A stretch of DNA of 64,000 nucleotides, taken from contig NZ_CP083723.1 in assembly GCF_020150815.1 (NCBI RefSeq), positions 248,001 through 312,000 on the forward strand, written 5' to 3'. Position 1 is the stretch's first letter, and the number at the start of each line of letters is the position of its first letter. This stretch comes from Haloprofundus salilacus (GTDB lineage: Archaea > Halobacteriota > Halobacteria > Halobacteriales > Haloferacaceae). The translations under genes were made by a program, and so were the position numbers. Of the stretch, positions 3,129 through 29,900 are shown one piece after another. The notes under the pieces are model-generated. The model searched no databases and was not told the DNA's origin. It was given only the letters and a program-made list of their open reading frames with translations.

Positions 3129-3872
3129 ATGCGACTCGCCGACGCACTCGCCGCACGCGAGGGGATGACTTGCGTCGTCGGCGCGGGCGGCAAAAAGACG
3201 ACACTGTACGCGCTCGCGTCGCGTCTCGACCGGGCCGTCGTCACTGCGTCGGTCCGGATTCCGATTCCCTCGCTCGAAGAGAACGTCGAAGAAGTCGTCG
3301 TAACCGACGACCCGCTCGCTGCCCTCGAAGAAGCAACGCTCGACGACTTTCCACTCGGCCTCGTCCCCGGTCAGGCCGACGACGTGCGGTATCACGGCTA
3401 CGAGAACGAACTCCTCGACCGCCTCGCCGCGGCGCACGACGGACCGGTGCTCGTCAAAGCCGACGGCGCACGGATGCGCGATTTCAAAGCGCCGAGCGAC
3501 CGCGAACCGCAGATTCCCGACGAGACGGCGACGGTGCTCCCTATCGCCAGCGCGCACGTCGTCGGCGAACCGCTGGACGAGAAGATGGTGCACCGCCCCG
3601 AGCGAGTCGCCGAAATTGCGGGAATCGACGTGGGCAACGCGATTACGACTGAAACGGTCGCGGCCGTGCTCGCCAGCGACGAGGGGGGATTGAAGCGAGT
3701 TCCGGAGGGGGCAACGGCGGTTCCGGTCGTGAACAAAGTTGACGACGAACAACTGGCCGATGTGGGGAGAGAGATCGCGTCGAAAATCTTGGAGCGCGCC
3801 GGCGGGCGAGTGGAGCAGGTGGTGCTCGCGCGGATGAACCGAGAGGATGCGGTAGTCGGCGTGGTAGAGTAA
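3129..3872 (+). CDS. yqeC: YqeC-family protein, selenium/molybdenum hydroxylase accessory factor
   Basis: The 247-residue protein has a P-loop-like N-terminus (VVGAGGKKTT, residues 17-26), followed by the YqeC family blocks LVKADGARMRDFKAP and NKVDD. The second resembles an NKxD nucleotide-base motif. In bacteria YqeC is associated with selenium-dependent molybdenum hydroxylases; its reaction is not established. The gene follows the 2736 gene by 6 nt and converges on mobA, placing it in a Mo/W cofactor neighbourhood. No molybdenum hydroxylase is seen in this window, so its client here may be another Mo/W enzyme. Confidence 0.85.
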   Translation: MRLADALAAREGMTCVVGAGGKKTTLYALASRLDRAVVTASVRIPIPSLEENVEEVVVTDDPLAALEEATLDDFPLGLVPGQADDVRYHGYENELLDRLAAAHDGPVLVKADGARMRDFKAPSDREPQIPDETATVLPIASAHVVGEPLDEKMVHRPERVAEIAGIDVGNAITTETVAAVLASDEGGLKRVPEGATAVPVVNKVDDEQLADVGREIASKILERAGGRVEQVVLARMNREDAVVGVVE

Positions 3873-3890: not shown

Positions 3891-4502
3891 TTATTCGAAC
3901 TCCTGCGCGGCTTCCTCGAACTCCTCACGCGTGTTCAGGTTTTCAAACGTCTGCAGGCTCCCGTGCTCGGCAATCTCGCTCTCGTCGACGACGACGTAAT
4001 CCAACTCGAACAGCGGGTCGATAATCTTCCGCGAACCTTCCGCGAGCGCCGCGTCGCAGGCGTCGGCCATCGAGTCCGCCCGGTAGACGGCGTGCGTCGT
4101 CTGAAACCACTGATCGTCCAACTGCGGCACGGCCGCGTCGTGACCTTCGACGCGCTCGAACAGGTACGCGACGACGTCGGGGTTGACGAACGGCATGTCG
4201 CAAGCGACGACGACGGCGTATTCGCCCGAAACGGCGCGGAGACCGGTCCGAATCCCCGACATCGGACCCTCGTCGGGCGTCTCGTCCTCGGCGATGGAAA
4301 CGGGGTGCGGATAGTCGCTGAAGGCGTCGCGAATCGCCGCCCGCTGGTCGGCGCGGCAGTTGACGACGAGCGCGTCGACGACACCGGCGAGTCGGTCGCC
4401 GACGCGGCGAATCATCGGCGTTCCGGCGAGGTCAGCGGTCGCTTTGTCGGCGTCGCCGAAGCGGGTCGAACGACCGCCGGCGACGATGACTGCCGTGCGC
4501 AT
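3891..4502 (-). CDS. mobA: Molybdenum cofactor guanylyltransferase MobA
   Basis: MobA transfers GMP from GTP to molybdopterin to make the MGD form used by DMSO-reductase-family enzymes such as formate dehydrogenase. The 203-residue protein begins MRTAVIVAGGRSTRFGDADK, the GG-x-S-x-R-x-G nucleotide-binding signature with its Lys. A later VVACDMPFV block carries the metal-binding Asp. The ATG at 4502 was chosen because it starts directly at the Rossmann strand; a longer in-frame extension to 4556 has no family counterpart. It converges with yqeC and is divergent from the AOR-like gene. Confidence 0.93.
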   Translation of the reverse strand: MRTAVIVAGGRSTRFGDADKATADLAGTPMIRRVGDRLAGVVDALVVNCRADQRAAIRDAFSDYPHPVSIAEDETPDEGPMSGIRTGLRAVSGEYAVVVACDMPFVNPDVVAYLFERVEGHDAAVPQLDDQWFQTTHAVYRADSMADACDAALAEGSRKIIDPLFELDYVVVDESEIAEHGSLQTFENLNTREEFEEAAQEFE

Positions 4503-4602: not shown

Positions 4603-6447
4603 ATGCGCGACACCGTGCTGCGGGTGGACCTCTCGGCGGAGACCGTCGAGAGAGAGCGCGTCCCCGAGAAGTGGCGACGCGACTACCTCGGCGGGAAGGG
4701 GTTGGGCGCACGCTACCTCTACGCCGACCTCGCCCCCGGCGTCGACCCGCTGGGTCCCGACAATCTTCTCTCCTTCATGCTCGGCCCGCTCTCGGGATAT
4801 CTCCCGGGCGAGACGCGCTACGCGGCGGTGACGAAGTCGCCGCTCACCGGCGGCTTTCTCGACTCCTACAGCGGCGGGTCGTTCCCCGAACGCCTCGCCG
4901 GGTCGCTAGACGACTGTCTCGGCGTCCTCATCACCGGTCGCGCGGAGCGGCCGGTCACCCTCGTCGTCGACGACGGCGCGGCGACGATAGAACCCGCCGA
5001 CGACCTGTGGGGCCGCGACACCGTCGAGACGGACGCAGCGTTCCCCGACGCCGCAGTCGCCTGCATCGGCCAGGCGGGTGAGTCGACAGTGGCCTACGCC
5101 ACCATCGCCTCCGACGGCGGCAACCACCACGCCGGACGCGGCGGTGCAGGCGCGGTGATGGGGTCGAAACGACTGAAAGCCGTCGTCGCACGCGGCGACG
5201 CCCCCGAGATACCGCCCGCACTTCGCGACGTGCGCGACCGGTACGAGCGCGCCTACGGCGACCACAACACGGGGCGTTGGCAGGCGGCCGGGGAGACGCT
5301 TGAGAGCGTCGACTTCGCCAACGAAGTCGGCGTGCTCGCCACCGAGGGCTGGCAGCGCGGTCGGTTCGAGGAGGCCGACGACATTGGTATCGAGGCCGCC
5401 CGCGAGGCCGCCGTCGGTCGAGAACGCGAGGACGACGCCACCCCCGGCGGGTTCCGCGTTCCGACCGACGACGGCGAGCACGAAAGCGTCCCGCGTGGGG
5501 CCGCACCGATGACGCTCGGGGCCGGACTCGGTGTCGACGAGTTCGACGCCGTTGCGGCGCTTGGCGCGACGTGCGACCGCCTCGGCGTCGACGTGATCAG
5601 CGCCGGAAACGCCGTCGCGTGGGCCGTCCGCGCCGATGACGCCGGACTCGTCGAGACCGACGTTCGGTTCGGCGACGACGAGGCGGCGCGGCGACTACTC
5701 GTCGCCATCGCTTCGCGCGACGGCGAACTGGCCAACGCGCTGGCCGACGGCGTCGCCGACGCCGCGCGCCGGTACGGCGGCGACGACCTCGTGCCGACGG
5801 TCAAATCGATGGAACTGCCATCGTACGACCCCCGCGGAGCGGTCGGGATGGCGCTGGCGTACGCGACGAGCGACCGGGGGGCCTGCCACCGCCGCGCCCG
5901 TCCGGTCGAGCGCGAGGTGTTCGAGGCGTGGGACGACGCCGACGCGGTTGAAGCCGTCGCGGGAGCGCAGACCATTCGCTCGGTCCTGTGGAGCCTCGTC
6001 GTCGACGACTTCGTCGGCGAGACGATGTGGGACGACCTCGGCCGGGAGTGGCTGGCCGCGGTCGGTCTCCCGCACGACGCCGAGGAACTGAGCCGAACCG
6101 GCGAGCGCATCTGGACGCTCGTCCGCCTGTTCAACGTGCGCGAAGGCTTCGACCGGAGCGACGACGCGCTCCCCGAGGCGCTGCGCCGACCCCTTACCGA
6201 CGGCCCGGCGGCCGGACGCGCCGTCGACCCCGAGACGTTCGAGCGACTGCTCGACGCCTACTATGCCGTTCGCGGCTGGGGACCCGACGGTCGCCCGACC
6301 CGAGCGACAGTCGAGCGGCTCGGTCTCGGCAGCGTCGTCGACGACGAAACGCCGCTGGCGGACGAAACGGCGACTCCCGACCCCGCAGGGGCGGACGGAC
6401 CGACCACGACCACCGCGGACAACGAACACGAGACAGATGACAGATAG
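4603..6447 (+). CDS. Aldehyde:ferredoxin oxidoreductase homologue lacking Fe-S ligands
   Basis: The 614-residue protein follows the AOR fold from end to end: MRDTVLRVDL start, GGKGLGARYLY, SPLTGGF, AGRGGAGAVMGSKRLK (tungstopterin-binding region) and DPRGAVGMALAYATS followed by RGACH. The CxxCxxxC motif that normally follows the first third, and the later DxxGLC cysteine, are both absent. The fourth-ligand region reads SVLWSLVVDDF, and the PEYE glutamate block is replaced by AAPMTLG. Tungstopterin binding is therefore plausible, but the [4Fe-4S] route for electrons is gone. The gene is translationally coupled to 6437. It may be a non-redox, regulatory or alternative-acceptor member of the family. 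Confidence 0.85.
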   Translation: MRDTVLRVDLSAETVERERVPEKWRRDYLGGKGLGARYLYADLAPGVDPLGPDNLLSFMLGPLSGYLPGETRYAAVTKSPLTGGFLDSYSGGSFPERLAGSLDDCLGVLITGRAERPVTLVVDDGAATIEPADDLWGRDTVETDAAFPDAAVACIGQAGESTVAYATIASDGGNHHAGRGGAGAVMGSKRLKAVVARGDAPEIPPALRDVRDRYERAYGDHNTGRWQAAGETLESVDFANEVGVLATEGWQRGRFEEADDIGIEAAREAAVGREREDDATPGGFRVPTDDGEHESVPRGAAPMTLGAGLGVDEFDAVAALGATCDRLGVDVISAGNAVAWAVRADDAGLVETDVRFGDDEAARRLLVAIASRDGELANALADGVADAARRYGGDDLVPTVKSMELPSYDPRGAVGMALAYATSDRGACHRRARPVEREVFEAWDDADAVEAVAGAQTIRSVLWSLVVDDFVGETMWDDLGREWLAAVGLPHDAEELSRTGERIWTLVRLFNVREGFDRSDDALPEALRRPLTDGPAAGRAVDPETFERLLDAYYAVRGWGPDGRPTRATVERLGLGSVVDDETPLADETATPDPAGADGPTTTTADNEHETDDR

Positions 6448-7315
6448 CATCGACCTCGACGAACTGGACGTATCGACCGACAGCGACGCGGAGAAACCGA
6501 ATCGCGGCGACTGGTTCTGGAAGGGCGAGGGCGACCCCGAAGACGAGACACTGGAGACCCGCGACGGTGAGGGCGAGAACGAGGCCGAAACCGGTGCCGA
6601 ACTAACCGACGCAGATACTGAGCTTTCCGACTCCGAGACGCTCGATCCCGAGACCTCCGCCTCCGGTGCGGCCTCCGACTCCGGCGCGACCCCCCGGGAC
6701 TCCGACGCCGACCACAGCGCGATTCCACGGGTTCCGCGGACGAACGACGACGCTCCGGTCGGCATCCCCATCCAGGGCGGCGGCGCGGGCGGCGCGGCGA
6801 CGGGAAGCGTCGATGACGACGCCGCGGCCGAAGGCGAGCAAACGGAACCGGAACCGACGGGACCGCACGGCAGCGGTCCCTCCGAGATGACGATGGCGCT
6901 GACGTACGAAGCGGTGAAACGGCTGGAGAACCCCGCCGCCGCGTTCGCCGACGCCGAAGGGTGGACCGACTGGCTCGGTATCGTCGGCGACGTGGACGCG
7001 CACGTCATCACCAAGTTCCAGCGCGAGTCGGTCGTCGACGCGGACTTCTTCAACGGCACTGGCACCGGCCCGGCGGAGCGACTGGCTGGTATCGACGAAC
7101 GCTCGATGTTCTTCGCCGAGCGGATGGTCGTCGTCGGCGTCGCGGGCGTCGACGACTACATCGCCGAGGAGAGCGGGTGGGAGTTCGTCCCCCTGGAGAC
7201 GGCCGCCGAAAAAGCTGGGTGGCCGCTCGTCGACGGGAACGAAAGCGGAGAGAACGGCGGCGGCGAGAACGGCGATGTCAGCGGGAGCGACGACAGCAGC
7301 GTCAAGCGGCAGTGA
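6437..7315 (+). CDS. Acidic protein coupled to the AOR homologue, 292 aa
   Basis: The ATG lies inside the last four codons of the AOR-like gene, so the two are translationally coupled. Residues 1 to about 150 are strongly acidic, Ser/Thr/Glu/Asp-rich and probably disordered. They contain one aromatic anchor (NRGDWFWKGEG). Residues about 150-265 form a compact domain with blocks MTMALTYEAVKRLENP and DAHVITKFQRESVVD and a final FVPLETAAEKAGWPLV. The tail is Gly/Asn/Glu-rich. No cofactor motif is seen. Its position suggests an obligate partner of the cluster-less AOR; function unknown. Confidence 0.75.
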   Translation: MTDSIDLDELDVSTDSDAEKPNRGDWFWKGEGDPEDETLETRDGEGENEAETGAELTDADTELSDSETLDPETSASGAASDSGATPRDSDADHSAIPRVPRTNDDAPVGIPIQGGGAGGAATGSVDDDAAAEGEQTEPEPTGPHGSGPSEMTMALTYEAVKRLENPAAAFADAEGWTDWLGIVGDVDAHVITKFQRESVVDADFFNGTGTGPAERLAGIDERSMFFAERMVVVGVAGVDDYIAEESGWEFVPLETAAEKAGWPLVDGNESGENGGGENGDVSGSDDSSVKRQ

Positions 7316-8243: not shown

Positions 8244-9479
8244 TCACAGCAGCGGGAACGAGCGGTCGTTCCGCGCGGGGACGTAGAAATTCGCTCGCGA
8301 CGTGACGCGGATGAAGTTCAAAATCCCGTTGTGTTCGCGGTCGGTGATGTCCGGGCTATCGTCGCGGACGTACCAGCCGTTCATCGCTTTTCGCGTCCGC
8401 CGAAAGTGGTCGAGTTTCCGCTGGAAGGTGACGAAGTGGACGCCCGGTTTACCGCCGTCGACGGTATTGAAATCGCGTCGCAGCACTAACGGTTCGTCGG
8501 TGTCGTCGCGGCGGACCTGCGCGACTTTCTCGTGGTGACCGACGACGTCGTGGTCGCGGGCGTGTTCGCGGACCTGATTCGAGAAGGGTACGTCGTCGGT
8601 GAATTTCGCCACGTCGTCCTCGGTGAACTCCGGGGAGAACATCCGCGCGATGCGCTCGTTTTCGTCGAGCGTGCCGTACCAGTCGCGGAGGTTCACCGTT
8701 AGGCGGCTGAGGTGCATCGTCGTCCCGTCGACGAATCGCCCATTGGGGATAGCGACGCTCTCCTCTCTGGGTTGTGTCCGATTGCGCCCGGAGAAAAAGC
8801 CCATGAACATCTGCTCGTCGCCGGTCAGCGCGTCGCCGGGGACGCCCTCGGCGTCGGCGTGTTCCGCGGGGAGTCCCTCGCCGAGGAAGCCGGTTCGACG
8901 CCCGCGAACCCGGAACACGTCGCCGAGACGGTGGTCGACCGACTCGCCGCCGAGGCGCTTTCGGGAGCCGAACAGCGCGCTCTCGGCAGCTGCGAGGTGC
9001 GACGGGAGGTCGCTCTCCAACACGAGCGCGGCGTCGAACGACTGGAGATCGGGGTCGTCGGTCCGCGACAGCACTTGCGGCGGGTCGATGGGGACGCGCG
9101 AGAGTTCGCCAATGCGCTCGAAGTAGTTCGTCCCCCACGCCAACGTGTGAAAGAGACCCTCGTGGTGCCAGTTGTACGCCGCTTCGAGCGTCCGCATCGC
9201 CTGTTCGACGGTCCGCGCGTCTTCGACCGACGGCTCTCGCTGGAGGTCTAACAGGAGGATACGTCGGTAGCGCGCCTGCAGGTGGTTGCCCACGTCGTCG
9301 GTCGGTAGGTACTCGTTCTGGGCGAATTGGCGGTCCGGGAGGCGGTCGCTGCGCGGATTGGCCGAGAGGCCGTCGACGCCTGGGCCGGTCGCCGGGTCGA
9401 GGAGGCGGCTACAGCCCGAGAGACCGACGGTTCCTGTCACGACCGCGAGATGACTGAGCGCGGTGCGTCGTGAAACCAC
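8244..9479 (-). CDS. DyP-like Tat lipoprotein with altered distal motif
   Basis: From a GTG start at 9479 the protein (411 aa) opens with a Tat-lipoprotein signal: SRRTALSHLAVV, then lipobox LSGC with Cys23. The C-terminal half resembles dye-decolourising peroxidases: MFMGFFSGRNR aligns with the distal GxxDG motif. GHHEK then VLRRDFN and GVHFVTFQRKLDHF align with the proximal heme His, RR motif and final strand. The distal catalytic Asp is apparently Ser (GFFSG). It is probably a cell-surface heme or deferrochelatase-like protein, or a non-heme relative. An in-frame ATG at 9575 would add 32 residues before the Tat motif and is less likely. Confidence 0.65.
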   Translation of the reverse strand: MVSRRTALSHLAVVTGTVGLSGCSRLLDPATGPGVDGLSANPRSDRLPDRQFAQNEYLPTDDVGNHLQARYRRILLLDLQREPSVEDARTVEQAMRTLEAAYNWHHEGLFHTLAWGTNYFERIGELSRVPIDPPQVLSRTDDPDLQSFDAALVLESDLPSHLAAAESALFGSRKRLGGESVDHRLGDVFRVRGRRTGFLGEGLPAEHADAEGVPGDALTGDEQMFMGFFSGRNRTQPREESVAIPNGRFVDGTTMHLSRLTVNLRDWYGTLDENERIARMFSPEFTEDDVAKFTDDVPFSNQVREHARDHDVVGHHEKVAQVRRDDTDEPLVLRRDFNTVDGGKPGVHFVTFQRKLDHFRRTRKAMNGWYVRDDSPDITDREHNGILNFIRVTSRANFYVPARNDRSFPLL

Positions 9480-9574
9480 GGCGTCTGGTAGCTCAGTACC
9501 GCTGTTCGCAAAAAGCTGTCTGTCGCCTCGGAGAACTGTCACGTCGTCGGTCCGAAACTCCCACCGACAGTACA

Positions 9575-9580
9575 TTTATT
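9575..9580 (+). promoter_or_regulatory. TATA box for the small membrane-protein trio
   Basis: ATTTATTCG is centred about 30 nt upstream of ATG 9608, consistent with a leaderless or near-leaderless transcript diverging from the DyP-like gene. Confidence 0.55.
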
Positions 9581-10536: not shown

Positions 10537-11166
10537 TTAGGAGATCATCTGCGCGACGAGTTCGTCCTCGAACTCGACGAAACCGGCGAAGACGAGCGCC
10601 GCCGCCCGGAACAGCGGTTCCTCCGTCTCGTTGAGCACGTCGTCGACGAACGCCTCGTGCCACGTCGCGAGATGCTCGTCGAGGAACACGCGCTCGTAGC
10701 CGAACGCCTCCTCCGCCCCATGAAACTGCCGCTCGACGAGGTACCGGAGGAACGCGAGTTCGACGGCGATGAAGTCGTTCTCCTCACCGTACTCCTCCGG
10801 CGGCTTCCACCCCGCGGCGGCGTAACTCGCTTCGACTTGCGCGAGCCCCTCACCGATGAAGTCGGTGTCATCGCGGTAGTACGTCTCGTGCGCCAGGACG
10901 GGCGGGCGCGGCCCGACGAACACGCGCGTGTACTCCTGCGCCAGTTCATCTCGAACCGCTGCCGGGTCGCGTCCGTCGTTGTTCGCGACGAACGTTCTGA
11001 GCAGGTCGAACCCCTCGTCTAACGAGGTGTTGACTTTCGCGTCCGGCAACTGGAGGCCATCGCCGAGTAAGTTCGCGACGAACGTCTCGTCGGGTACGTC
11101 CCAGAACACCTCGATGACAAAATCCACGAGTTCGAGGCGGGCGTCGTAGACGGCGGCGTCGTCCAT
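10537..11166 (-). CDS. torD: TorD/DmsD-family molybdoenzyme chaperone
   Basis: The 209-residue all-helical protein carries the family block EYTRVFVGP followed by the HETYY segment. TorD-type chaperones bind the Tat signal of DMSO-reductase-family enzymes and hold them until the Mo/W cofactor is inserted. Its start overlaps the stop of the upstream iron-sulfur gene (ATGA). The formate dehydrogenase alpha subunit at 15.7 kb, which has a Tat signal, is the obvious client. The start at 11166 is fixed by this coupling and the natural MDDAAVYD N-terminus. Confidence 0.88.
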   Translation of the reverse strand: MDDAAVYDARLELVDFVIEVFWDVPDETFVANLLGDGLQLPDAKVNTSLDEGFDLLRTFVANNDGRDPAAVRDELAQEYTRVFVGPRPPVLAHETYYRDDTDFIGEGLAQVEASYAAAGWKPPEEYGEENDFIAVELAFLRYLVERQFHGAEEAFGYERVFLDEHLATWHEAFVDDVLNETEEPLFRAAALVFAGFVEFEDELVAQMIS

Positions 11167-13292
11167 CACTGGGCACCTCCGTTCTCGAACAGGAGGCGTG
11201 CACGGCAGTCTCCGCAGTAGTCGAAGACGCTGGCGTCGGCGCCCGGCGCAATTCCTTCGACCACGTCGCCGACCTCGCCTTTCACTTTCTCGATGGAGCC
11301 CCGACTGGCAAACGGTTTCCCGCAGCGGACGCACTCGACCATCTCGCCCTCGTATACCGTCTCCCAGCGTTCGCCGCTGTTGCGTTCGGGGAGGCGAGCG
11401 AGATCCAACCCGGTTTCGATGGTGATGGCCGTCTCCGGACAGCCTTCTTCACATAGCCCGCAGTTGACGCAGTCCTCGTGGCTGAACTGCAGGTCACCGT
11501 CGTCGGTCCGGCGGATGGCGTTGGTCGGACAGAGCGTCGAACAGGTGGGCGTGAGGTTGCACGCCTCACTCACGTCCATCAGTCCGAACGTCTCCAGCCC
11601 TCGAATCACGTCCCGGTCGGGGTCGGTGCGGGCGACGATGGCGCGGACGCTTTCGAGCGCCCAATCGTGTGTGTTGAACGCCGGGTTCGGCTTATCGTCG
11701 CGGACGACGCCCGTCGCGCGGTGTTCGCCCGCCGGAATCGGCGTCTCTGAGAGGCCGTCGACGAACGCCTCCAATTCGGCGACGAACGATTCGTGTTCGG
11801 CCGGGTCGGGCGCGAAGAACGCGGTTCTGTCGCCGAGGCCGAGGTCGGCCGTCGCGCGGTTCAGTCGCTCGACCAGTTCGGCTTTCGGGTCCGGTCCGGA
11901 GTGCAGACAGCTGTCGCCGCAGCCGACGACGGCGACTCCGTCGGCTCCCGCGGCGAGCGCGTGGAGCACGTGCGCCTCGCCGACGGTGTCGGTGCAGTTC
12001 ACCGAGACGGGGAGGACGGGCGGGTAGGTGAGGTCGGTTCCGCTCGCCGCGCGGCGGCCGTAGGCGCGGAGCGCGTCGGCGGCACGCTCCGAGCAGACGA
12101 AGGCGACGACGGGCGTCTCGATGCCTTTCTCGCCTCTGCTGAACAGCCAGCCGCCGCCTTGCTCCTCCACGTCGAGAAGCGCCTCCACTTCGCGGGCGAG
12201 GCGCTCGTTCGACGGTTCGCGGAGCATCGTCGCGCCCGTCGGGCAGGCGCTCGTGCACGCGCCGCAGTCCTGACACGCCACCTCGTCGAACTCGACGGAG
12301 TCAACGGTCGGCCGTCGGACGGCGTCGTGCGGGCAGGCGTCGGTGCAGGCGGTACAGCCTTGCTGGCTGGATTCGCCCGCCGCGCAGACGTCGAGGTCGA
12401 GGTCGAGATGCTTCGGCTTTGTGACGCCGCCGAGTAGACTCTCGACGGCGGCGACAGTTCCGGCGTCAACGGGGCCGGTGTAGTAGCCGAGTCGGCCGCC
12501 GCGCGCCGCGGACGAGCCCTCGGGATACACCACTTGGTCGACTTCGATAGCCCGCTCGATGCCGGAGCGGTCGATAGCGTCTGTTGGACAGCACTGCTCC
12601 CACTCGCCGCCAGGGGCATCGGGGTCGATGTCGACCGGGTAGCGCGTCAACATCCCCTCAGGACCCTCCTTCACGCACTTCATACAGGAGACGCAGTCGT
12701 CTGTCACCTCCGAGTGGAGCGTGAGTCGAAACTCGCCGAACTCACCCTCGACGCCGACGACGCGCCCGCGTTCGACGGTCACATCCGAGAGATCGACGTC
12801 CGAATCGTGGAAATCGCGGCCGTCGGCGACGAGCGTCACCTTGGCGGAGTCTGCGAGCGCGGCGGCCGTCTCGGCGTCGCCGACGACGACGACGGCGTCT
12901 CCGGCGTCTTGGGTGACGCTCCGACTCGCCGCCTCGTGTTCGAGTCCGGCGCGACGCGCGTTCAACAGGCGGGCGGTCTTGTCAGTCGCGGCGTCGCGGT
13001 CATGGACCCAGCCCGCGCCCGCGCGGTGGTCGACGAACGAGGTGGCCTCCGGATGGAGCCCCTTCTCCTCAGCGAGCGCCCGGAAGCGGCGCTGACAGCC
13101 ATCGTCGGGTGCAGTGACGAGCAACTGGTCAAGTTCGTACTCGTCGACGAGCTGTGCCATCGCGGGGAGACCGTCTTCGCACAGCAGCGTCGAGCTGGCG
13201 ACCACGTCCACGTCGCGGACGCCGTCTCGCGTTCGTTCGAGGTCGATGTCGCAGGTGTCGCCGCAGGAGCACACAAAGGCGCCGACGTTCAT
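11166..13292 (-). CDS. HdrA/MvhD-like multi-[4Fe-4S] electron-transfer protein
   Basis: The 708-residue modular protein begins like HdrA: VGAFVCSCG (1-11), a later Cys38, and GWVHDRDAATDKTA at 94-107, where HdrA has its conserved WVH and KA. The HdrA FAD domain is missing. Ferredoxin-type cysteine sets follow at about 200-240, 303-320 and 340-350. An MvhD-like domain at about 395-480 has Cys400, 433, 458 and 462. A further ferredoxin set (578-618) and a C-terminal CVRC...CGDC zinc ribbon (654-696) close the protein. There is no signal peptide, so it is cytoplasmic. Its operon with torD next to formate dehydrogenase suggests electron delivery. Confidence 0.8.
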   Translation of the reverse strand: MNVGAFVCSCGDTCDIDLERTRDGVRDVDVVASSTLLCEDGLPAMAQLVDEYELDQLLVTAPDDGCQRRFRALAEEKGLHPEATSFVDHRAGAGWVHDRDAATDKTARLLNARRAGLEHEAASRSVTQDAGDAVVVVGDAETAAALADSAKVTLVADGRDFHDSDVDLSDVTVERGRVVGVEGEFGEFRLTLHSEVTDDCVSCMKCVKEGPEGMLTRYPVDIDPDAPGGEWEQCCPTDAIDRSGIERAIEVDQVVYPEGSSAARGGRLGYYTGPVDAGTVAAVESLLGGVTKPKHLDLDLDVCAAGESSQQGCTACTDACPHDAVRRPTVDSVEFDEVACQDCGACTSACPTGATMLREPSNERLAREVEALLDVEEQGGGWLFSRGEKGIETPVVAFVCSERAADALRAYGRRAASGTDLTYPPVLPVSVNCTDTVGEAHVLHALAAGADGVAVVGCGDSCLHSGPDPKAELVERLNRATADLGLGDRTAFFAPDPAEHESFVAELEAFVDGLSETPIPAGEHRATGVVRDDKPNPAFNTHDWALESVRAIVARTDPDRDVIRGLETFGLMDVSEACNLTPTCSTLCPTNAIRRTDDGDLQFSHEDCVNCGLCEEGCPETAITIETGLDLARLPERNSGERWETVYEGEMVECVRCGKPFASRGSIEKVKGEVGDVVEGIAPGADASVFDYCGDCRARLLFENGGAQ

Positions 13293-13296
13293 ACTC

Positions 13297-13315
13297 GTGT
13301 GATAGCTTACCACAC
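13297..13315. promoter_or_regulatory. Inverted repeat upstream of the HdrA/MvhD-like gene
   Basis: GTGTG and CACAC arms flank a 9-nt centre, just 5 nt before the start codon of the leftward operon. A TATA-like element (minus strand TTTATTTTG) lies about 55 nt upstream of the ATG, so the palindrome falls in the leader, where a repressor or RNA structure could act. Confidence 0.35.
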
Positions 13316-13699
13316 ATGAAAGCCTTTGCGCGCCGACAGGATTCAAAATAAACGAAATATCTCTTCAGGGAGAGAGTTGACAGAAGAACTCCGTGGTTTT
13401 GGAACGTTATTGGGCCAGCCACGGTGGTCATGGTAGCCACAATCGGAGCCCGCCGACCGCTCGTTGAGTAGCAAGTAAACTACCCCACCCAACTCGTTCG
13501 CTACGTTCGCTTCTTGAAGTCGGAGGTACCACCTTGAATTACCTGAATTGAGGCGCTAAGGCCCCTTCCTCACCGAGCGAGCGAAGCGAGCGAGTAGGGA
13601 GGGGATACAGCGCCGCACAGTTCTCGGACACGTTCGACACTCAACCCACAGCCCCACGTAATCGCAACCGTTTAGTACGTGGTTTGCATAAATTATGGT

Positions 13700-13822
13700 G
13701 TGGCAACGCGCAAGACCATCTCTATCCGCGACGATCAAGAGGAGTGGATTCAGGAGAACCACCTGAGTCTGTCCTCGTTCGTCCAAGAGAAACTTGATGA
13801 ACTCATCGAAGAACGCTCGTGA
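13700..13822 (+). CDS. 40-residue ribbon-helix-helix (CopG-like) protein
   Basis: A GTG-initiated micro-gene encodes a beta strand (RKTISIRDD) followed by two helices (QEEWIQEN and LSSFVQEKLDELIEE), the RHH/CopG layout. Its stop overlaps the GTG start of tnpB by four bases (GTGA). Small RHH genes coupled to tnpB occur in haloarchaeal IS elements. A role in repressing tnpB or assisting its RNA is an inference. Confidence 0.75.
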   Translation: MATRKTISIRDDQEEWIQENHLSLSSFVQEKLDELIEERS

Positions 13823-15344: not shown

Positions 15345-15717
15345 CAGCTCTCAACATCTGATCGAATCTTCGCTAGCGGATCACCGCTTAGCCTACGGCG
15401 AGCGGTCCAAGTGTTCCCGTGAGACTATGATCTAAAGGCGGTCTGAGTCGATCTCTTCGGAGTTCACTTCGCCAACGGTACCGAAACGCGTCACCGAACC
15501 GTAGAGTAGCGAATTCTATTCTTTTCTCCGACAATTCTTCATGCCGTCTTGTATTTCGTGCATTTTCTCTTACTCGAAGAATTAATAGAGGGAACGATAA
15601 TAACTGGCGACTGTATCCCAGTTCCACCATAACACTCATTATTAAACATGCCGGACATTTGAGCATGTGCATAGATAACAGTGGACAATCACCGCAGTTG
15701 AAAGATAGGTGGGGACC
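15345..15717 (+). promoter_or_regulatory. fdhA: AT-richer regulatory region upstream of fdhA
   Basis: No gene is seen here. The stretch is clearly lower in GC than its surroundings. Near its right end a TATA-like TTATTAAA (about 15639-15646) would give a start site near 15670 and a leader of about 48 nt. AGGTGG, 8 nt before ATG 15718, is a Shine-Dalgarno-like site, unlike the leaderless genes elsewhere in the window. Confidence 0.5.
15646..15668. promoter_or_regulatory. Palindrome between fdhA TATA and predicted start site
   Basis: ACATGC (15646-15651) and GCATGT (15663-15668) form a perfect inverted repeat with an 11-nt centre. It lies directly after the TATA element, a position where a bound repressor would block transcription. 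Confidence 0.4.
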
Positions 15718-18700
15718 ATGAGTTCGGAACCCGTTTCGCTGGATCTCGACCGTCGGTCGTTCATGAAGGCTAGCGCGCTCGCCGGCGCACTCGCGTTGGG
15801 AGGAAGCGCAACAGGTCAGGTGCTCGCTCAGGGCGAAAGTGACGAAGAGGACGGCGCAGATACGGAAGGGGAACTTGTAAAGACGATCTGTAACTTCTGC
15901 GCCGTCGGCTGCGGGTTCAAAGGCGAGCGGAAGGGCAACGCGTTCGTCGGCCAGGAACCGTGGTTCGAACACCCAGTCAATAACGGTTCGCTCTGCTCGA
16001 AAGGTGCAGCGATTTACGGCAGTGAACACTCGCCGAAACGACTGAAACACCCTATGAAACTCGAAGAGGGCGAGTGGAAGAAGATTTCGTGGGGCGAAGC
16101 AATGGGCGAAATCGGCGACGAACTCCTGCGTATCCGCGACGAGTACGGCCCGGATAGTGTCATGTGGCTGGGAAGCGCCCACCACGCTAACGAGGAGGCG
16201 TACGCCTTCCGTAAACTCGCCGCGTTTTTCGGAACAAACAACGTCGACCACCAAGCGCGCATCTGCCACTCCACGACCGTCGCCGGTCTCGCAAACACGT
16301 GGGGCTACGGTGCGATGACGAACACGATAAACGACTACCGGAACTACGACCTCGACATCATCATCGGGCAAAACCCCGCCGAGGCTCACCCAATCGCGAT
16401 GCAACACATCCTCGAGGGTCAGAGACGCGGCGGCACGATCGTCTCGGTCGACGCCCGGTACACGAAGACGTCGGCACACGCTGACTACTTCTACCGTATC
16501 CGTCCCGGTACGGACGTTGCGCTGATGATGGGGATTATCCGCTACCTTCGCGAGCAGGGCGAACTCGATCAGCAGATGATCAACGACCGGGTCCAAGGGT
16601 GGCCCGACGTCGACGCCAAACTCGACAGATACGACCTCGACACAGTCGAAGACATCACTTGGGTGAGCAAGGATGACATCCAGGAGCTCGGCGACCTCAT
16701 CATCGAGAACAAGCCGAAAGTCCAGATCGAGTGGGCGATGGGCGGAACCCAGCACAACAACGGGACCCAGAACATCCGTTCGTACGCGCTGACGAGCCTC
16801 GGGTCGGGCTGTGCGGCCCGCAGCGGCGGCGGATTGCAGGTAATGCGCGGCCACTCGAACGTCCAGGGCGCGACCGACCTCGGCCCGAACAGCCACATCC
16901 TTCCGGGGTACTACTCCAATGACTCGCCGGGGTCGTGGGCTTACTGGACCGACGTCTGGAACGAGAGCCCGTGGACCAGCGGGAGCATCTCCATATCAGA
17001 GATGTACGATCGCTTCGAGATGATGTCGAAGGAGAAGTACGAGGCGCAGGGCGGCTCCGAGTCCACCTTCGAGAACGAGGGCCTCGCGATCACCAGCCGA
17101 TCGATGATGCTCCAGAACGGACTCACCGTCGCCCGGTGGTTCGAGGCAGCCCTCGACAAGAAGGACCGGCTGAACCAGTCCGAACTCTACCAGCCGAACA
17201 AGGTGAAGGCGGCCATCTACGACGGACACTCCACGAACTCCATCAGCGAGATGGACCAGCAGAAGAAGGCGTTGGAGAACCTCGACCTGCTGGTCGTCGT
17301 GGACATGTTCCCGTCGTTGGCGTCGGTGATGCACAACCGCGACGACGGCGTCATCCTATTACCGGCGTCGAGCCAGTACGAACACCACGGCACCGTTACC
17401 AACTCCCACCGCTCGGTGCAGTGGCGCAACCCCGTCCGACCGCCGGGCCACAACTCCAAGACGGACATGGAGATCATCCAACTGTTCGCCGACGCGCTCG
17501 GATTCGGCGAGCATTTCGACTGGGGAAGCGGAAACGGCCTGTTCAACGGGCGTTCCACCTACGAGGATGCGCTCCGCGAAATCAATCTCGGAGTGCGCAC
17601 CATTGGCTATCAGCAAGATCCCGAGCGTCTCCAGCGCCAGTACGAGTACGACTGGGCGTTCAGCACGGAAGACCTAAAGGTCGACAAGCCTGGGCTCCCG
17701 GTCAGCGGCGAGTACTGGCAGCTCCCGTGGCCGTGCTGGGGTGAAGGACATCCAGGTACGCCCATCATCTGGCGCGCTGATATCGACCCGCGCGAGGGCG
17801 GCCAAGACTTCCGCGCCCGCTGGGGAACGAAAGCGCCGACGCCGCAAGAGTGGAAGAAGATGAGCGACGAAAAGGGTATTCAGAAAGAGTACCCGTTCAA
17901 GGAGACGGTGAAGCAGCAAGGCCAGAAAGGTCTAGAAATGCTTCGAGCGCCGTACAACCCGGACTGGTATGGTGGCAAGGAGATAAAGGGCGTTCCGGAG
18001 TACCCCAACTTCTCCACTGCGTGGCCGAAGGATGTCACGAATCCCGACTCGCTTTCGATTCCGTACGAGTACGCGCTTCGAGCGGACAAATCGCCCTACG
18101 ATGCTGCGAAGGAGCTCAAGAAGCGCGGCGCCGACGTCAACCCGAAGGAGTACGAGCCGTTCGACGTCAAGCAGCCTGATCCACCGACCGGTCGAGGGCG
18201 TGCCCGCGGTGTCGCCTGGGACTTCTTGGACACCGTCCCCGTCCACCGCGAACCGGTCGAGAGTCCGCGCCCGGACTTGGTTGAAAAGTGGCCCGCAAAT
18301 GGTAAGCAGACGAACTTCTATCGGCTTGACCAGAACAATGCGGAGGTCCAGAAACGAGCGACTACGGCGGCGCAAAAGCAGGGCATGAACATCATCATGA
18401 CGACCGGACGCCAGGTCGAACATCAGGGTGGTGGGTCCGAGTCGCGCTCGAACATCTTCCTAGCCGACCTTCAGCCGCACATGTACGCCGAAATTCATCC
18501 GAATCTGGCCGAGCAAATTGGCATCGACGGTGGTGACCTTGTCGTCGTCTCGACGACAGACCGGGGGTCTATCCTCGTGAAGGCGCGGGTAACCCATCGA
18601 CCGAACGAGAAAGAGACGTTCCTGCCGTTCCACTGGGGTGGTGTCTACCACGGGAAGAGTCTAGAGGACAAGTACCCCGACGGAATGGCACCGTTCGCCA

Positions 18701-18912
18701 TCGGGGACAGCGTGAATCTCATCACGTCCCGCGGGTACGATGTCGAGACCCAGATGCAGGAAACGAAGCCTGCGATGGTGAAAATCCAGAAGGCGACTAC
18801 CGACCTGCTCGAGAGGCTAAATATGGATACCGACCTCACGTTCCCGCAGGACCGTGATGGCGTCGGCCTGCAGAAAGATTTCGACGTCCGTGACTCGAAA
18901 ACTGTTCAATGA
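15718..18912 (+). CDS. fdhA: Formate dehydrogenase alpha subunit, Cys form, Tat-exported
   Basis: The 1064-residue molybdopterin oxidoreductase has a Tat signal (DRRSFMKASALAG, residues 11-23). The N-terminal [4Fe-4S] ligands are Cys58, 61, 65 and 93, followed by the formate-dehydrogenase active-site block HQARICHSTTVAGLA. Cys183 there takes the place of selenocysteine and is preceded by Arg181. The sequence continues as in FDH-N/O with YGAMTNTINDY and a C-terminal cofactor-binding barrel (VEHQGGGSESR and FLPFHWGGVYHG). It oxidises formate at a bis-MGD Mo or W centre, probably outside the membrane. ATG 15718 is preceded by a Shine-Dalgarno-like site. fdhB follows after 9 nt. Confidence 0.9.
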   Translation: MSSEPVSLDLDRRSFMKASALAGALALGGSATGQVLAQGESDEEDGADTEGELVKTICNFCAVGCGFKGERKGNAFVGQEPWFEHPVNNGSLCSKGAAIYGSEHSPKRLKHPMKLEEGEWKKISWGEAMGEIGDELLRIRDEYGPDSVMWLGSAHHANEEAYAFRKLAAFFGTNNVDHQARICHSTTVAGLANTWGYGAMTNTINDYRNYDLDIIIGQNPAEAHPIAMQHILEGQRRGGTIVSVDARYTKTSAHADYFYRIRPGTDVALMMGIIRYLREQGELDQQMINDRVQGWPDVDAKLDRYDLDTVEDITWVSKDDIQELGDLIIENKPKVQIEWAMGGTQHNNGTQNIRSYALTSLGSGCAARSGGGLQVMRGHSNVQGATDLGPNSHILPGYYSNDSPGSWAYWTDVWNESPWTSGSISISEMYDRFEMMSKEKYEAQGGSESTFENEGLAITSRSMMLQNGLTVARWFEAALDKKDRLNQSELYQPNKVKAAIYDGHSTNSISEMDQQKKALENLDLLVVVDMFPSLASVMHNRDDGVILLPASSQYEHHGTVTNSHRSVQWRNPVRPPGHNSKTDMEIIQLFADALGFGEHFDWGSGNGLFNGRSTYEDALREINLGVRTIGYQQDPERLQRQYEYDWAFSTEDLKVDKPGLPVSGEYWQLPWPCWGEGHPGTPIIWRADIDPREGGQDFRARWGTKAPTPQEWKKMSDEKGIQKEYPFKETVKQQGQKGLEMLRAPYNPDWYGGKEIKGVPEYPNFSTAWPKDVTNPDSLSIPYEYALRADKSPYDAAKELKKRGADVNPKEYEPFDVKQPDPPTGRGRARGVAWDFLDTVPVHREPVESPRPDLVEKWPANGKQTNFYRLDQNNAEVQKRATTAAQKQGMNIIMTTGRQVEHQGGGSESRSNIFLADLQPHMYAEIHPNLAEQIGIDGGDLVVVSTTDRGSILVKARVTHRPNEKETFLPFHWGGVYHGKSLEDKYPDGMAPFAIGDSVNLITSRGYDVETQMQETKPAMVKIQKATTDLLERLNMDTDLTFPQDRDGVGLQKDFDVRDSKTVQ

Positions 18913-18921
18913 GGTAATGCT

Positions 18922-19593
18922 ATGTCAACAAACAACTCGAAACAAGTGATGGGCCAGGGCGTCATGAGCGTCGGTGAGGACGCGCGAATCTTCCCCGACG
19001 TGGAGGCGTGTATCGACTGCGGCGGCTGCGTCGTCGCCTGCAAACGAACGTGGGACGTTCCGCGGAACGAGCAGCGTATCAGCATCTCGACGATGCTCGA
19101 AGGCAAGGAGGCCGCGGCGGGCCTCAATGCCAACAGCGCACAGGCGCTCAAGCAGGGGCAGTCGCCCGGCGAGACGAGCGTGCCGATGCAGTGTTACCAC
19201 TGCGAGAACGCCCCCTGCGTCTCGGTCTGCCCGACCGATTCGCTGTTCAAGAAGGACAACGGCTTCGTCGAGGTCCGAGACGACCTCTGCGTCGGCTGTC
19301 AGTACTGCCTGTCGGCGTGTCCGTTCGGCGCGCCGCAGTTCCCCGATGCCGACGAGGGATCGGCGAAACTGTTCGGCACCGGCGGCACGATGGACAAGTG
19401 TACGATGTGCGAGGAGCGCCAGGATGTCGGTAAAGGTCCGGCCTGCGCCGAGGAGTGCGCGACCGACGCTATCCTCGTCGGCACGACCGGACAGATAGCC
19501 GAGGAACTCGACAAGCGCGGCAGCGCCTCCTTCTTCAATCAGGAGGCGATGGAGATCATCTTCGGCGAGGAGGGCGCGAGGGAGTTCCAATGA
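18922..19593 (+). CDS. fdhB: Formate dehydrogenase beta subunit, four-cluster ferredoxin protein
   Basis: The 223-residue protein has four cysteine sets in the order typical of FdhB/DmsB subunits: CIDCGGCVVAC, CYHCENAPCVSVC, CVGCQYCLSAC and CTMC...CAEEC. It passes electrons from the alpha subunit to the cytochrome b. There is no signal peptide, so it is probably exported bound to the Tat-carrying alpha subunit. The stop overlaps the next start (ATGA). Confidence 0.92.
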   Translation: MSTNNSKQVMGQGVMSVGEDARIFPDVEACIDCGGCVVACKRTWDVPRNEQRISISTMLEGKEAAAGLNANSAQALKQGQSPGETSVPMQCYHCENAPCVSVCPTDSLFKKDNGFVEVRDDLCVGCQYCLSACPFGAPQFPDADEGSAKLFGTGGTMDKCTMCEERQDVGKGPACAEECATDAILVGTTGQIAEELDKRGSASFFNQEAMEIIFGEEGAREFQ

Positions 19594-20051
19594 GCCGTTC
19601 GCTGCCCGAGACGAGAGATTACAGCGTGCTGGCAATAGCCGTCAACGCGGTCATCGCGATAGCCGTCACCGCGGTCGTCGTCTGGTGGGCGTCGGGGTTC
19701 GCCTACAACGCCGAGGCGCTGTTCCGCGTCGGTCCGACCGTCGAAGGCGGCGGCATCGGCGCGGACTGGCGCGCCGGCAACACGATTCCGGCGCTCGACT
19801 TCCTCATCGCGTTCGTCCACGCGGCCGACGTGCTGATGGGTATCTTCATCCTCGTCATGGTGTTCGTCCACTGGGGCGCGTTCCGCCGCCTCGCCTCGCG
19901 GATGCGGCAACCTGGCGAACCGGCGCGCTACGACTCCGATGCGGACGCCGTCGCCGACGGCGGCCGACCGAGCGACGGCGCGAACGTCGCCGGCGGCGCG
20001 AACGCGAGCGCCGACAACACCGCCCGCGACCCGGGAGGTGACGATCGATGA
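19590..20051 (+). CDS. Small membrane subunit of the formate dehydrogenase operon
   Basis: The 153-residue protein has TM helices at about 13-35 and 70-95, separated by an extracellular-looking Gly-rich loop, and an acidic Ala/Gly/Asp tail. Both ends overlap neighbouring genes by four bases (ATGA), so it is embedded between the beta and cytochrome b subunits. It has no haem or Fe-S motif. A structural anchor role is inferred; the family is not recognised. Confidence 0.7.
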   Translation: MSRSLPETRDYSVLAIAVNAVIAIAVTAVVVWWASGFAYNAEALFRVGPTVEGGGIGADWRAGNTIPALDFLIAFVHAADVLMGIFILVMVFVHWGAFRRLASRMRQPGEPARYDSDADAVADGGRPSDGANVAGGANASADNTARDPGGDDR

Positions 20052-21052
20052 CGAACTTAGACCACGGGAAGTTCACCCGGATGACGACGACGTTCCACAC
20101 GCTGTTGGCGCTGGACGTGTTCATCCTGTTCTTCTCGGGGTACGGACTGATGTTCAACGACGAACTCTGGTGGCTCGTCACGCTGATGGGCGGCAGCACC
20201 GGCGTGACTGCGGTCCACCGCATCGCGGGTCTCGGTCTCGTGGTGCTCATCGTCTTCTGGATGCTGATGATGATAACGACGAGCACCGGCCGCGGCAACT
20301 TCCGACAGATTCTGATAGGGCCCGACGATGTGGCCGCCGCGATTCAGGACTTCAAGTTCGTCCTCGGGATGGCCGACGAGCGCCACCCGAACGCCCGGCA
20401 GTTCGCCGGCTACAAATCCGACGAGGTGCCGCTGCTGTCGTACATCGGCAAGGGCGTCGTCTACATTTTCTCGATCGAACTGACGCTGCTCACGATTTCG
20501 GGGCTGCTCATCTGGAGCAAGACCGGGGTGATGCAGTACTTCGCGACGAAGACGGCAGCGATGGCGTTTGTCGTCTTCCACGGCCTGCTCGGCGTTATCA
20601 TGCTGATGGGCGTGATGTTCCACATCTTCGAGCACGGCTTCCACCCGGCGTTCTACCCGGTCGAGGTGAAAGCGTTCATCCCCCGGAAGCTGATTCCGGA
20701 GGAGCACGCCGACACCGACCACGACTCGACGGGCATCAGCCAGCTCAGCCTCGCGCCGTCGTGGGGGTGGGCGACGAACGTCATGGGCGTGCTCACCGTC
20801 ATCGGCATCGTCAGCGTGCTCGTCGGCAGTATCTTCGACGAGGGCTACCCAGTCCCGCGCGAACTCGCCGTCGGTGGCGGGCCGACAGACCTGCTTCTGA
20901 CCGTCGGCATCAACGTCGGGATTCTGGTGCTGTTCATCGGGATGGCGCTGCAGATGTACGGCAATCTGATGCGCGTCCGCTGGCAGCGGCAACTGGAGGA
21001 AGAGGCCCGCGCGCCGGCCGCTACCGACGGTGGACGGCCGAACGACGACTAG
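20048..21052 (+). CDS. Cytochrome b subunit of formate dehydrogenase
   Basis: The 334-residue membrane protein has about five TM helices and conserved histidines on several of them (FHTLLALD, AVHRIAGL, VFHGLLGV, FHIFEHGFHP), the pattern of FdhI/FdnI-type di-haem cytochromes b. It would accept electrons from the beta subunit and reduce the membrane quinone. The C-terminus is acidic and cytoplasmic-looking. A GC hairpin follows 20 nt after the stop. Confidence 0.85.
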   Translation: MTNLDHGKFTRMTTTFHTLLALDVFILFFSGYGLMFNDELWWLVTLMGGSTGVTAVHRIAGLGLVVLIVFWMLMMITTSTGRGNFRQILIGPDDVAAAIQDFKFVLGMADERHPNARQFAGYKSDEVPLLSYIGKGVVYIFSIELTLLTISGLLIWSKTGVMQYFATKTAAMAFVVFHGLLGVIMLMGVMFHIFEHGFHPAFYPVEVKAFIPRKLIPEEHADTDHDSTGISQLSLAPSWGWATNVMGVLTVIGIVSVLVGSIFDEGYPVPRELAVGGGPTDLLLTVGINVGILVLFIGMALQMYGNLMRVRWQRQLEEEARAPAATDGGRPNDD

Positions 21053-27968: not shown

Positions 27969-29900
27969 TTAGTCGTCGGCGGGGGCAGGGGAGTCGCTGC
28001 TGCTGCTGACGCCCGTGCCGGGACCGACGTCGATTCCGAGTTCGTCGAGTTTCTCGTCGGGGACGACGCCGTCGACCCAGCCGCGGTGGTCGTAGTACTC
28101 CTCCTTCATCTCGTCGAGCTCGCAGAACTCGCCTTCGGAGGCGCCCTGTCCGGCGACGCCGCCCTCGCCGTCGAGGAAGCGCGCCGGCAGCGAGTCGTCG
28201 GAGCCGTCGAAGCCAACGAGGTTGTTGTAGTAGCGTTCGAGGTTGTAGACGCGCTCGCCCGCCTCGATGAGTTCGTCCTCGGTCACGTCGAGACCCGTCA
28301 TGCCGTTGTACTGCATGACGTACTCCTCGATGCCCTCCGCGAAGGCGTTGAACTTGCAGATGTCGAAGCTGTCGGAGATGGCGTGGAGGTCCTGGAACGT
28401 GGCGGTGAGTTCGCCCTTCCCCTCCCACGCGTACGGGTCGACCTTCTCCGGAATGCCGAGAATCTCGGCGGCCGGGGTGTAGGCGCGCAGGTGGCACGCC
28501 CCGCGGTTCGAGGTGGCGTAGGCGATGCCCATGCCCTTCATGCAGCGCGGGTCGTACGCCGGAATCGTCTGACCCTTGACGGCCAGCGAGTTCTCCTCAG
28601 CGTCCTTCTCGTCGGCGATGCGCTTCGCGCCCTCGGCGATCAGGTCCGGGAGGCCCTCCTCGCGTTGGGCGACGCGCTCGATCATGTCGACCATCGTCTC
28701 GGAGTCGCCCCAGTCGAGCGTCCCCACGTCGTCGAGTTTGCCCTCCTCGGACATCTCCATCGCCATGGCCATCATGTTGCCCATCTCGATGGTGTCGACG
28801 CCCATGTCGTTGCAGCGGTCGATCATGAGCGCGATATCGTCGCGCTCGGTGTGTCCGGAGTTCGGGCCGAGCGCGAACGCCGACTCGTACTCGTAGGACT
28901 CCATGCGGACGTTCATTTCCTCACCCTTGTGCATCGTCGTCACCTCGACTTCCTTCTTACAGGCGACCGGACAGGAGTGACACGTCGGTTCGTCGACGAG
29001 GATGTTCTCGCGGACGTTCTCGCCGGAGACCTCCTCCGCGTCGATGGTCGTCCCCTCGCTCTCGGAGAAGCTCCGCGTTGAGGTGTACTTCGCGTTCTTC
29101 GTTGGGAGGCCGTCCATCTCCTCGGTGATGTTCATCAGGACGTTCGTCCCGTACATCGAGAGCCCGCCCTCGTTCGGCGCGGTGACGTCGGACTCCTGGA
29201 TCGCCTGCATCCCCTGCTGGTAGCCCTTCTGGAACGTCTCGGGGTCCGCGGGTTTCGGCATCCGGGTGCCGGATTTGACGACGACTGCTTTGAGGTTCTT
29301 CGAACCCATCACGCAGCCGGTGCCGCCGCGACCCGACGCCCGGTCGTCCTCGTTGACGATGCAGGCGTAGCGCACGCCGTTCTCGCCGCCGGGACCGATG
29401 GCCATCACGGAGACGTTCTTGCCGACGGAGCCGTCGACTTCGTCGTCGATGGCTTCGATGGTGTCGTGGACGCCCTCCCCCCAGAGGTGAGAAGCGTCGC
29501 GGAGTTCGACCTCGCCGTCCTCGACGTACGCATAAACCGGTTCCTCGGCTTTGCCGTCGAAGACGAGACCGTCGAAGCCGGACCACTTCAGTCGCGCGCC
29601 GGACCAACCGCCGTGGTGGGAGTCGGTGACGGTGCCGGTGAGCGGCGACTTGGTGACGACCGCGATGCGGCCGCTCATTACCGTCTGCGTCCCCGTCAAC
29701 GGGCCGTTCATGAACGCGAGTCGGTTCTCCGGCCCGTCCGGGTCGACGTCCGGCCCGGCGTCGAAGACGTACTTTACCCCGAGGCCGCGCGCGCCGATGT
29801 ACTTGCGCGCGTCCTCTTCGTCGATACCCTCGTAGGCCACCTCGCCCGACGTGAGGTCGACTCTTCCTACGTGGTCTTGGAATCCGCCTAGTTCAGTCAT
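27969..29900 (-). CDS. Tungsten aldehyde:ferredoxin oxidoreductase
   Basis: The 643-residue AOR has all Fe-S ligands: CHSCPVAC gives Cys307, 310 and 314, and SFDICKF gives Cys515. Tungstopterin-binding blocks GARGLGVKY, SGRGGTGCVMGSKNLK and YDPRCMKGMGIAYATS with RGACHLR are present. It oxidises aldehydes to acids with ferredoxin as acceptor in the cytoplasm; haloarchaea carry several paralogues of differing substrate range. A minus-strand TTATAAT at 29915-29921 lies about 18 nt before the ATG. It contrasts directly with the cluster-less homologue at 4.6 kb. Confidence 0.93.
   Translation of the reverse strand: MTELGGFQDHVGRVDLTSGEVAYEGIDEEDARKYIGARGLGVKYVFDAGPDVDPDGPENRLAFMNGPLTGTQTVMSGRIAVVTKSPLTGTVTDSHHGGWSGARLKWSGFDGLVFDGKAEEPVYAYVEDGEVELRDASHLWGEGVHDTIEAIDDEVDGSVGKNVSVMAIGPGGENGVRYACIVNEDDRASGRGGTGCVMGSKNLKAVVVKSGTRMPKPADPETFQKGYQQGMQAIQESDVTAPNEGGLSMYGTNVLMNITEEMDGLPTKNAKYTSTRSFSESEGTTIDAEEVSGENVRENILVDEPTCHSCPVACKKEVEVTTMHKGEEMNVRMESYEYESAFALGPNSGHTERDDIALMIDRCNDMGVDTIEMGNMMAMAMEMSEEGKLDDVGTLDWGDSETMVDMIERVAQREEGLPDLIAEGAKRIADEKDAEENSLAVKGQTIPAYDPRCMKGMGIAYATSNRGACHLRAYTPAAEILGIPEKVDPYAWEGKGELTATFQDLHAISDSFDICKFNAFAEGIEEYVMQYNGMTGLDVTEDELIEAGERVYNLERYYNNLVGFDGSDDSLPARFLDGEGGVAGQGASEGEFCELDEMKEEYYDHRGWVDGVVPDEKLDELGIDVGPGTGVSSSSDSPAPADD

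Follow-up and report, generated by a model that had tools for sequence, protein, structure and literature searches.

We have analyzed a haloarchaeal protein of the aldehyde:ferredoxin oxidoreductase (AOR) family, here termed AORc, that lacks all four [4Fe-4S] ligands and tracks formate dehydrogenase (FDH), an association that is new here. Its gene lies in a stretch of 64,000 nucleotides of the Haloprofundus salilacus genome, referred to below as the window, and genomic context is the strongest functional evidence for it. We put forward tentatively, as a reading that falls somewhat short of probable, that AORc is a repurposed member of its family which has no aldehyde oxidation cycle and is accessory to haloarchaeal FDHs; as to the form of that role, AORc is best read as a pterin-binding accessory protein of an FDH maturation module that would operate independently of FdhD. 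A widespread clade without the cluster or the acidic residue, together with Cys-bearing sisters as intermediates, offers a way to study a metalloenzyme becoming something else. The link between AORc and FDH where FdhD is undetected also makes it testable how active FDH is put together in haloarchaea without recourse to the usual chaperone for sulfur insertion.

A summary of the features is presented in Table 1. The AORc reading frame is intact, running from an ATG at 4603 to a TAG at 6445-6447 and encoding 614 amino acids; some 20 bp 5' of the start lies the TATA-like TTTATAAA. A profile search gave nearly full-length matches to AFOR_N (220.9 bits) and AFOR_C (297.9 bits), which places the protein in the AOR/WOR fold family over its full length. 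The Pfam search of AORc returned AFOR domains only, and the FdhD domain (PF02634) was not among them. An AlphaFold model made from 3 aligned sequences reached a pLDDT of 37, too low for use.

Table 1. Features of the window and of the sister loci
Feature	Position or locus	Strand	Evidence or remark
yqeC homologue	3129..3872	+	TIGR03172, 169 bits; accompanies FDH across the family
MobA-like NTP transferase, oriented divergently from AORc	3891..4502	-	Open frame from 4556; start codon probably the ATG at 4502
AORc, AOR-family protein without [4Fe-4S] ligands or Glu311-Tyr312-Glu313 block	4603..6447	+	ORF, domain matches, alignment
Cluster-loop remnant, residues 277-282 (Pf C288-C295 region), no Cys	5431..5448	+	Alignment
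R298-G299-A300 replacing Pf Glu311-Tyr312-Glu313	5494..5502	+	Alignment
W463...D468 replacing Pf D489...C494 (second pterin motif and fourth Cys)	5989..6006	+	Alignment
DUF7124 protein	6437..7315	+	Domain match; downstream of AORc at most N-type FDH loci
DUF7405 protein	8244-9575		Dyp-type peroxidase C-terminal match, weak; recurs at many N-type FDH loci
TorD/NarJ-type chaperone	10537..11166	-	PF02613
FlpD and multi-4Fe-4S electron-transfer protein	11166..13346	-	Domain matches
FdhA, N-type formate dehydrogenase alpha	15709..18912	+	Twin-arginine leader; CH active-site motif (DHQARICHSTTV)
FdhB-like iron-sulfur subunit	18925..19590	+
Cytochrome b561-type membrane subunit	20048..21052	+
Ordinary WOR83-like AOR, four Cys and Glu	27969..29900	-	Alignment; comparison only, outside the module
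Sister AOR loci, intact Cys with Tyr93/His182/His183	L014, L078-L081, L083, L121-L124, L195, L196

AORc was aligned with PfAOR (1AOR), PfFOR, 9mqx and other haloarchaeal AORs, among them the four that the H. salilacus genome encodes besides AORc; residue numbers for replacements are those of PfAOR. Larger alignments comprised 80 AORc, 10 sister-clade proteins and 42 other AORs. In the window protein C288, C291, C295 and C494 correspond to D277, a gap, G282 and D468, and Glu311-Tyr312-Glu313 to R298-G299-A300; the preliminary description of this DNA had claimed the loss of all four ligands and of the PEYE Glu, and both losses are borne out. The four cluster cysteines are found in none of the 80 AORc, in 10 of 10 sister proteins and in 41-42 of the 42 other AORs. 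C494D, D489W, E311R, Y312G and R182H are fixed in 80/80 AORc, in all of which Ala, Gly or Ser takes the place of Glu313. Displaced cysteines are ruled out by the alignment of the 80 orthologues, where the ligands are replaced and not shifted: the only cysteines present in every AORc, C324 (common to 41 of the 42 other AORs) and C428 (in the RG[AG]CH region), lie outside the cluster loop.

Other parts of the active site are conserved. Thr243, Asp343 (80/80), Arg444, Cys447 and His448 are unchanged in all AORc, and Tyr427 (Tyr or Phe at this position), Asp338 (75/80) and Arg76 are nearly fixed. The two pterin-binding motifs of AOR/WOR proteins lie at about 338-344 and 489-495. The first is retained in the window protein (D338, G341, D343), while D489W and C494D disrupt the second in 80/80 AORc, so that the cofactor may be bound only partly or not at all. 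The term tungsten-pterin protein, used of AORc before, thus holds in part: the first motif, Thr243, Arg444 and His448 are kept and speak for it, and D489W, C494D and the change of Arg182 to His speak against it.

The second-shell residues of AOR/WOR enzymes are Thr243, Glu313, Tyr427 and His448, according to PMC12096430 and PMC13328260; the roles assigned here to retained and lost residues are drawn from the former, which proposes Glu313 as proton acceptor in the AOR mechanism. This set is incomplete in AORc, with Glu313 replaced in 80/80 and the others kept. Without the cluster there is no electron exit, and without Glu313 the proposed proton acceptor is missing, so that an aldehyde oxidoreductase cycle is unlikely and AORc, judged by its missing residues, is likely non-redox. 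It could be argued that AORc still oxidises an aldehyde and passes the electrons to the cluster of a partner protein, given that it retains the fold along with some of the active site and that a FlpD/Fer4 protein is encoded nearby; with the cluster, Glu313, Tyr312 and Glu311 replaced in every AORc, the proposed acceptor among them, we regard this as quite improbable.

AORc proteins form one monophyletic clade (SH-aLRT 100) in a quick tree that has some long branches elsewhere, so that cysteine loss (80/80 without ligands) marks a conserved haloarchaeal clade. An orthologue is present in 122 of the 170 genomes of the window's family. Class-wide, 140 of 252 sampled genomes and 43 of 74 genera have a hit with the AORc query (E <= 1e-90), a count that takes in a few genomes with the sister clade only. 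A degenerate copy confined to a single strain is excluded by this spread, and neither chance nor decay in one strain can explain why 80/80 orthologues lack the four Cys. No relatives of AORc were found in the viral contigs searched, and one search of genome contigs with AORc gave two distant relatives only.

AORc is under purifying selection, with dN/dS of 0.15-0.25 between close pairs. A decaying pseudogene or a sequencing artefact might be suspected from the loss of all canonical catalytic features, but is refuted by reading frames intact over many genera and families, by these dN/dS values and by dozens of clade-specific fixed residues, and retains virtually no probability. The earlier claims that the frame is intact and the gene maintained, and the suggestion of a re-purposed AOR-family protein, are supported by the same observations: the 614-residue frame, the conserved clade, the fixed replacements and purifying selection.

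The second AOR of the window, about 31% identical to AORc, had been singled out as keeping the motifs that AORc lost. It does so (CHSCPVAC, fourth Cys and Glu present), with the block reading SYEYE and not PEYE, and the remaining three AORs of the genome likewise retain four Cys. It is a close homologue (1171 bits) of Haloferax volcanii WOR83, for which a structure has been solved (PDB 9q1t). With AOR/WOR proteins such as PfAOR and WOR83, AORc shares the two-domain architecture, the first pterin motif, Thr243, Arg444, Tyr427, His448 and the RGxCH region; it differs from them in the missing [4Fe-4S] ligands and Glu311/Tyr312/Glu313 and in D489W and R182H. The class II benzoyl-CoA reductase BamB keeps its cluster, and both BamB and YdhV are redox enzymes. 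The two are, like AORc, AOR-family branches without the usual second-shell residues, but unlike AORc they have an additional cysteine that ligates the metal (PMC12096430). In the open-access literature, two recent AOR/WOR surveys call the cofactor-coordinating residues and the [4Fe-4S] cluster conserved and, in the portions available, mention no cluster-less clade (PMC13328260, PMC12096430).

The gene order in the window is yqeC (+), mobA (-), AORc (+), DUF7124 (+), DUF7405/Dyp-like, TorD, FlpD/Fer4 and FdhA-FdhB-cytochrome b, with the ATG of DUF7124 overlapping the AORc stop by 11 bp. A TnpB/OrfB-like gene with zinc-finger Cys pairs (13819-15120) separates the FlpD/Fer4 gene from FdhA and is apparently missing from related loci such as L046. 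FDHs were classed as N (Tat leader and cytochrome b), A (cytoplasmic FdhF), D (NuoG-fused) and B (another FdhF). The window's module, with its N-type FDH, recurs in other genera and families; elsewhere AORc adjoins A-type cytoplasmic FdhF or NuoG-fused D-type FDH, and in L111 and L119 it lies 7 bp downstream of A-type fdhF on the same strand. On plasmids (L010, L011, L013, L197, L198), AORc and fdhF are accompanied by genes for formate-THF ligase, formamidase, a BCCT transporter and an FAD-dependent oxidoreductase, and by glyA. The 7 bp spacing and the overlap with DUF7124 would suit a protein that stays in an FDH complex as a structural or regulatory subunit; this is unlikely, since AORc accompanies differing FDH architectures (N, A and D) and has no obvious export signal, whereas the N-type FdhA is probably exported.

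The association extends to whole genomes, in searches that scored the top candidates per genome only. Within the window's family, 105 genomes have both AORc and an N- or A-type FDH, 17 AORc only, 1 FDH only and 47 neither (p=2.5e-26, kinship ignored). Adding the D type, a class defined post hoc after being seen beside AORc, changes these counts to 116, 6, 1 and 47. B-type FdhF shows no association with AORc in the family (p=0.34). Of 123 family AORc genes, 72 lie within 20 kb of an N-, A- or D-type FDH and none near a B-type, and 51 have no scored FDH inside 20 kb, which weighs against the accessory reading. Presence of AORc is variable inside nine genera; N/A FDH follows it in seven, with four discordant genomes, all in g21 (three with AORc and no N/A FDH, one the reverse). 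No genome of g9 or g10 has N/A FDH, and those with AORc carry the post hoc D type.

In the class sample, every genome with an N-type FDH (E <= 1e-100) also has AORc (69/69), including 48/48 outside the window's family (p ~1e-24, kinship ignored). The association with A-type FDH outside the family is looser than that of the N type: 44 genomes with both, 25 with AORc only, 18 with FDH only and 74 with neither (p=1.4e-8, kinship ignored). The 18 exceptions, 17 of them in one family, mostly have yqeC and mobA near the FDH and hold only other AORs, of about 30-36% identity. AORc is therefore not needed for every A-type FDH, and an obligatory role for all FDHs is ruled out. A distinct FDH subclade behind the exceptions is not supported by active-site motifs, which do not set their FDHs apart from those of AORc genomes. 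Apart from these 18 genomes, AORc shows the linkage to and co-occurrence with FDH expected of an accessory factor.

FdhD (PF02634) was detected in none of the 170 family genomes and none of the 252 class-sample genomes; 8 of 14 control genomes gave matches. FDH genes are common in the class sample where FdhD is undetected. In E. coli the sulfido ligand of all three FDHs needs FdhD, and FdhF made without it has had its sulfur put back by chemical means (PMC6239281); Halodesulfurarchaeum, a haloarchaeon with FDHs, has been shown to grow on formate (PMC5437934). FdhD and FdsC, as FDH chaperones, resemble AORc in its proposed role only, that of a dedicated accessory in FDH cofactor maturation; they have no sequence relationship to it, and AORc occurs where FdhD is missing.

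YqeC is encoded in 138 of 170 family genomes and accompanies FDH of any of the four types (130 with both, 8 with YqeC only, 1 with FDH only, 31 with neither; kinship ignored). The family model names the FDH-linked YqeC a selenium cofactor protein, yet it tracks FDH. It is probably not a selenium protein, because, of 114 family genomes, only 1 has a selD above the cut-off, with one yqeC copy beside it; a selenium role for the neighbouring yqeC is to that extent unsupported. The window resembles the accessory set of selenium-dependent molybdenum hydroxylases (Haft and Self 2008, PMC2276186) in having yqeC beside a Mo/W cofactor nucleotidyltransferase gene, but here, where almost no genome has selD, yqeC tracks FDH and not molybdenum hydroxylases. 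That YqeC has a sulfur role in FdhD's place is a reasonable guess from these gene distributions.

A pocket with one intact and one remodelled pterin motif, taken with the linkage to FDH, speaks for an accessory that helps to assemble or load the FDH cofactor. AORc would keep a putative pterin pocket without electron exit or acid/base residues, and, while FDH is being assembled, this pocket may serve to hold, shield or pass on the Mo/W-pterin cofactor or half of it. MobA would attach the nucleotide, and YqeC may take over the chalcogen insertion done by FdhD elsewhere. The full scheme of FdhD-independent maturation, with YqeC inserting the terminal sulfur and not selenium, MobA adding nucleotides and AORc as carrier or loading platform of the pterin cofactor, is possible and, taken as a whole, rather doubtful; if true, an enzyme fold would have turned chaperone for its own kind of cofactor. 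The main rival, kept in play by the plasmid neighbourhoods, is a one-carbon enzyme feeding FDH, that is, a non-redox or cluster-independent W/Mo-pterin protein whose chemistry, for example hydration, hydrolysis or formyl chemistry, would yield formate and in which Arg298 and His429 would give shape to a new active site. The genes for formate-THF ligase, the BCCT transporter, the FAD-dependent oxidoreductase and formamidase beside AORc and fdhF on several plasmids are consistent with it, as are the retained Tyr427, Thr243 and His448, and optional presence suits a pathway enzyme. However, no such genes were seen at the window's N-type locus, though N-type FDH is the context that always has AORc, and the loci share FDH with yqeC and mobA rather than a substrate pathway. 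We consider this rival somewhat unlikely.

The closest relatives of AORc bear on the order of its changes. Ten sister-clade proteins, 41-48% identical to the AORc query, keep all Cys and Glu313, yet have Tyr93, His182, His183 and Tyr/Phe at 489. The Mg that links the pterin phosphates of PfAOR is held in place by backbone groups of Asn93 and Ala183 (PMC12096430). Since the Cys-bearing sisters already have them, the phosphate-side changes preceded, or arose separately from, cluster loss. Within the stretches examined, no FDH, yqeC or mobA was found near the sister genes. Two annotated sister AOR genes adjoin amidase genes, and peptidase/deacylase genes lie nearby.
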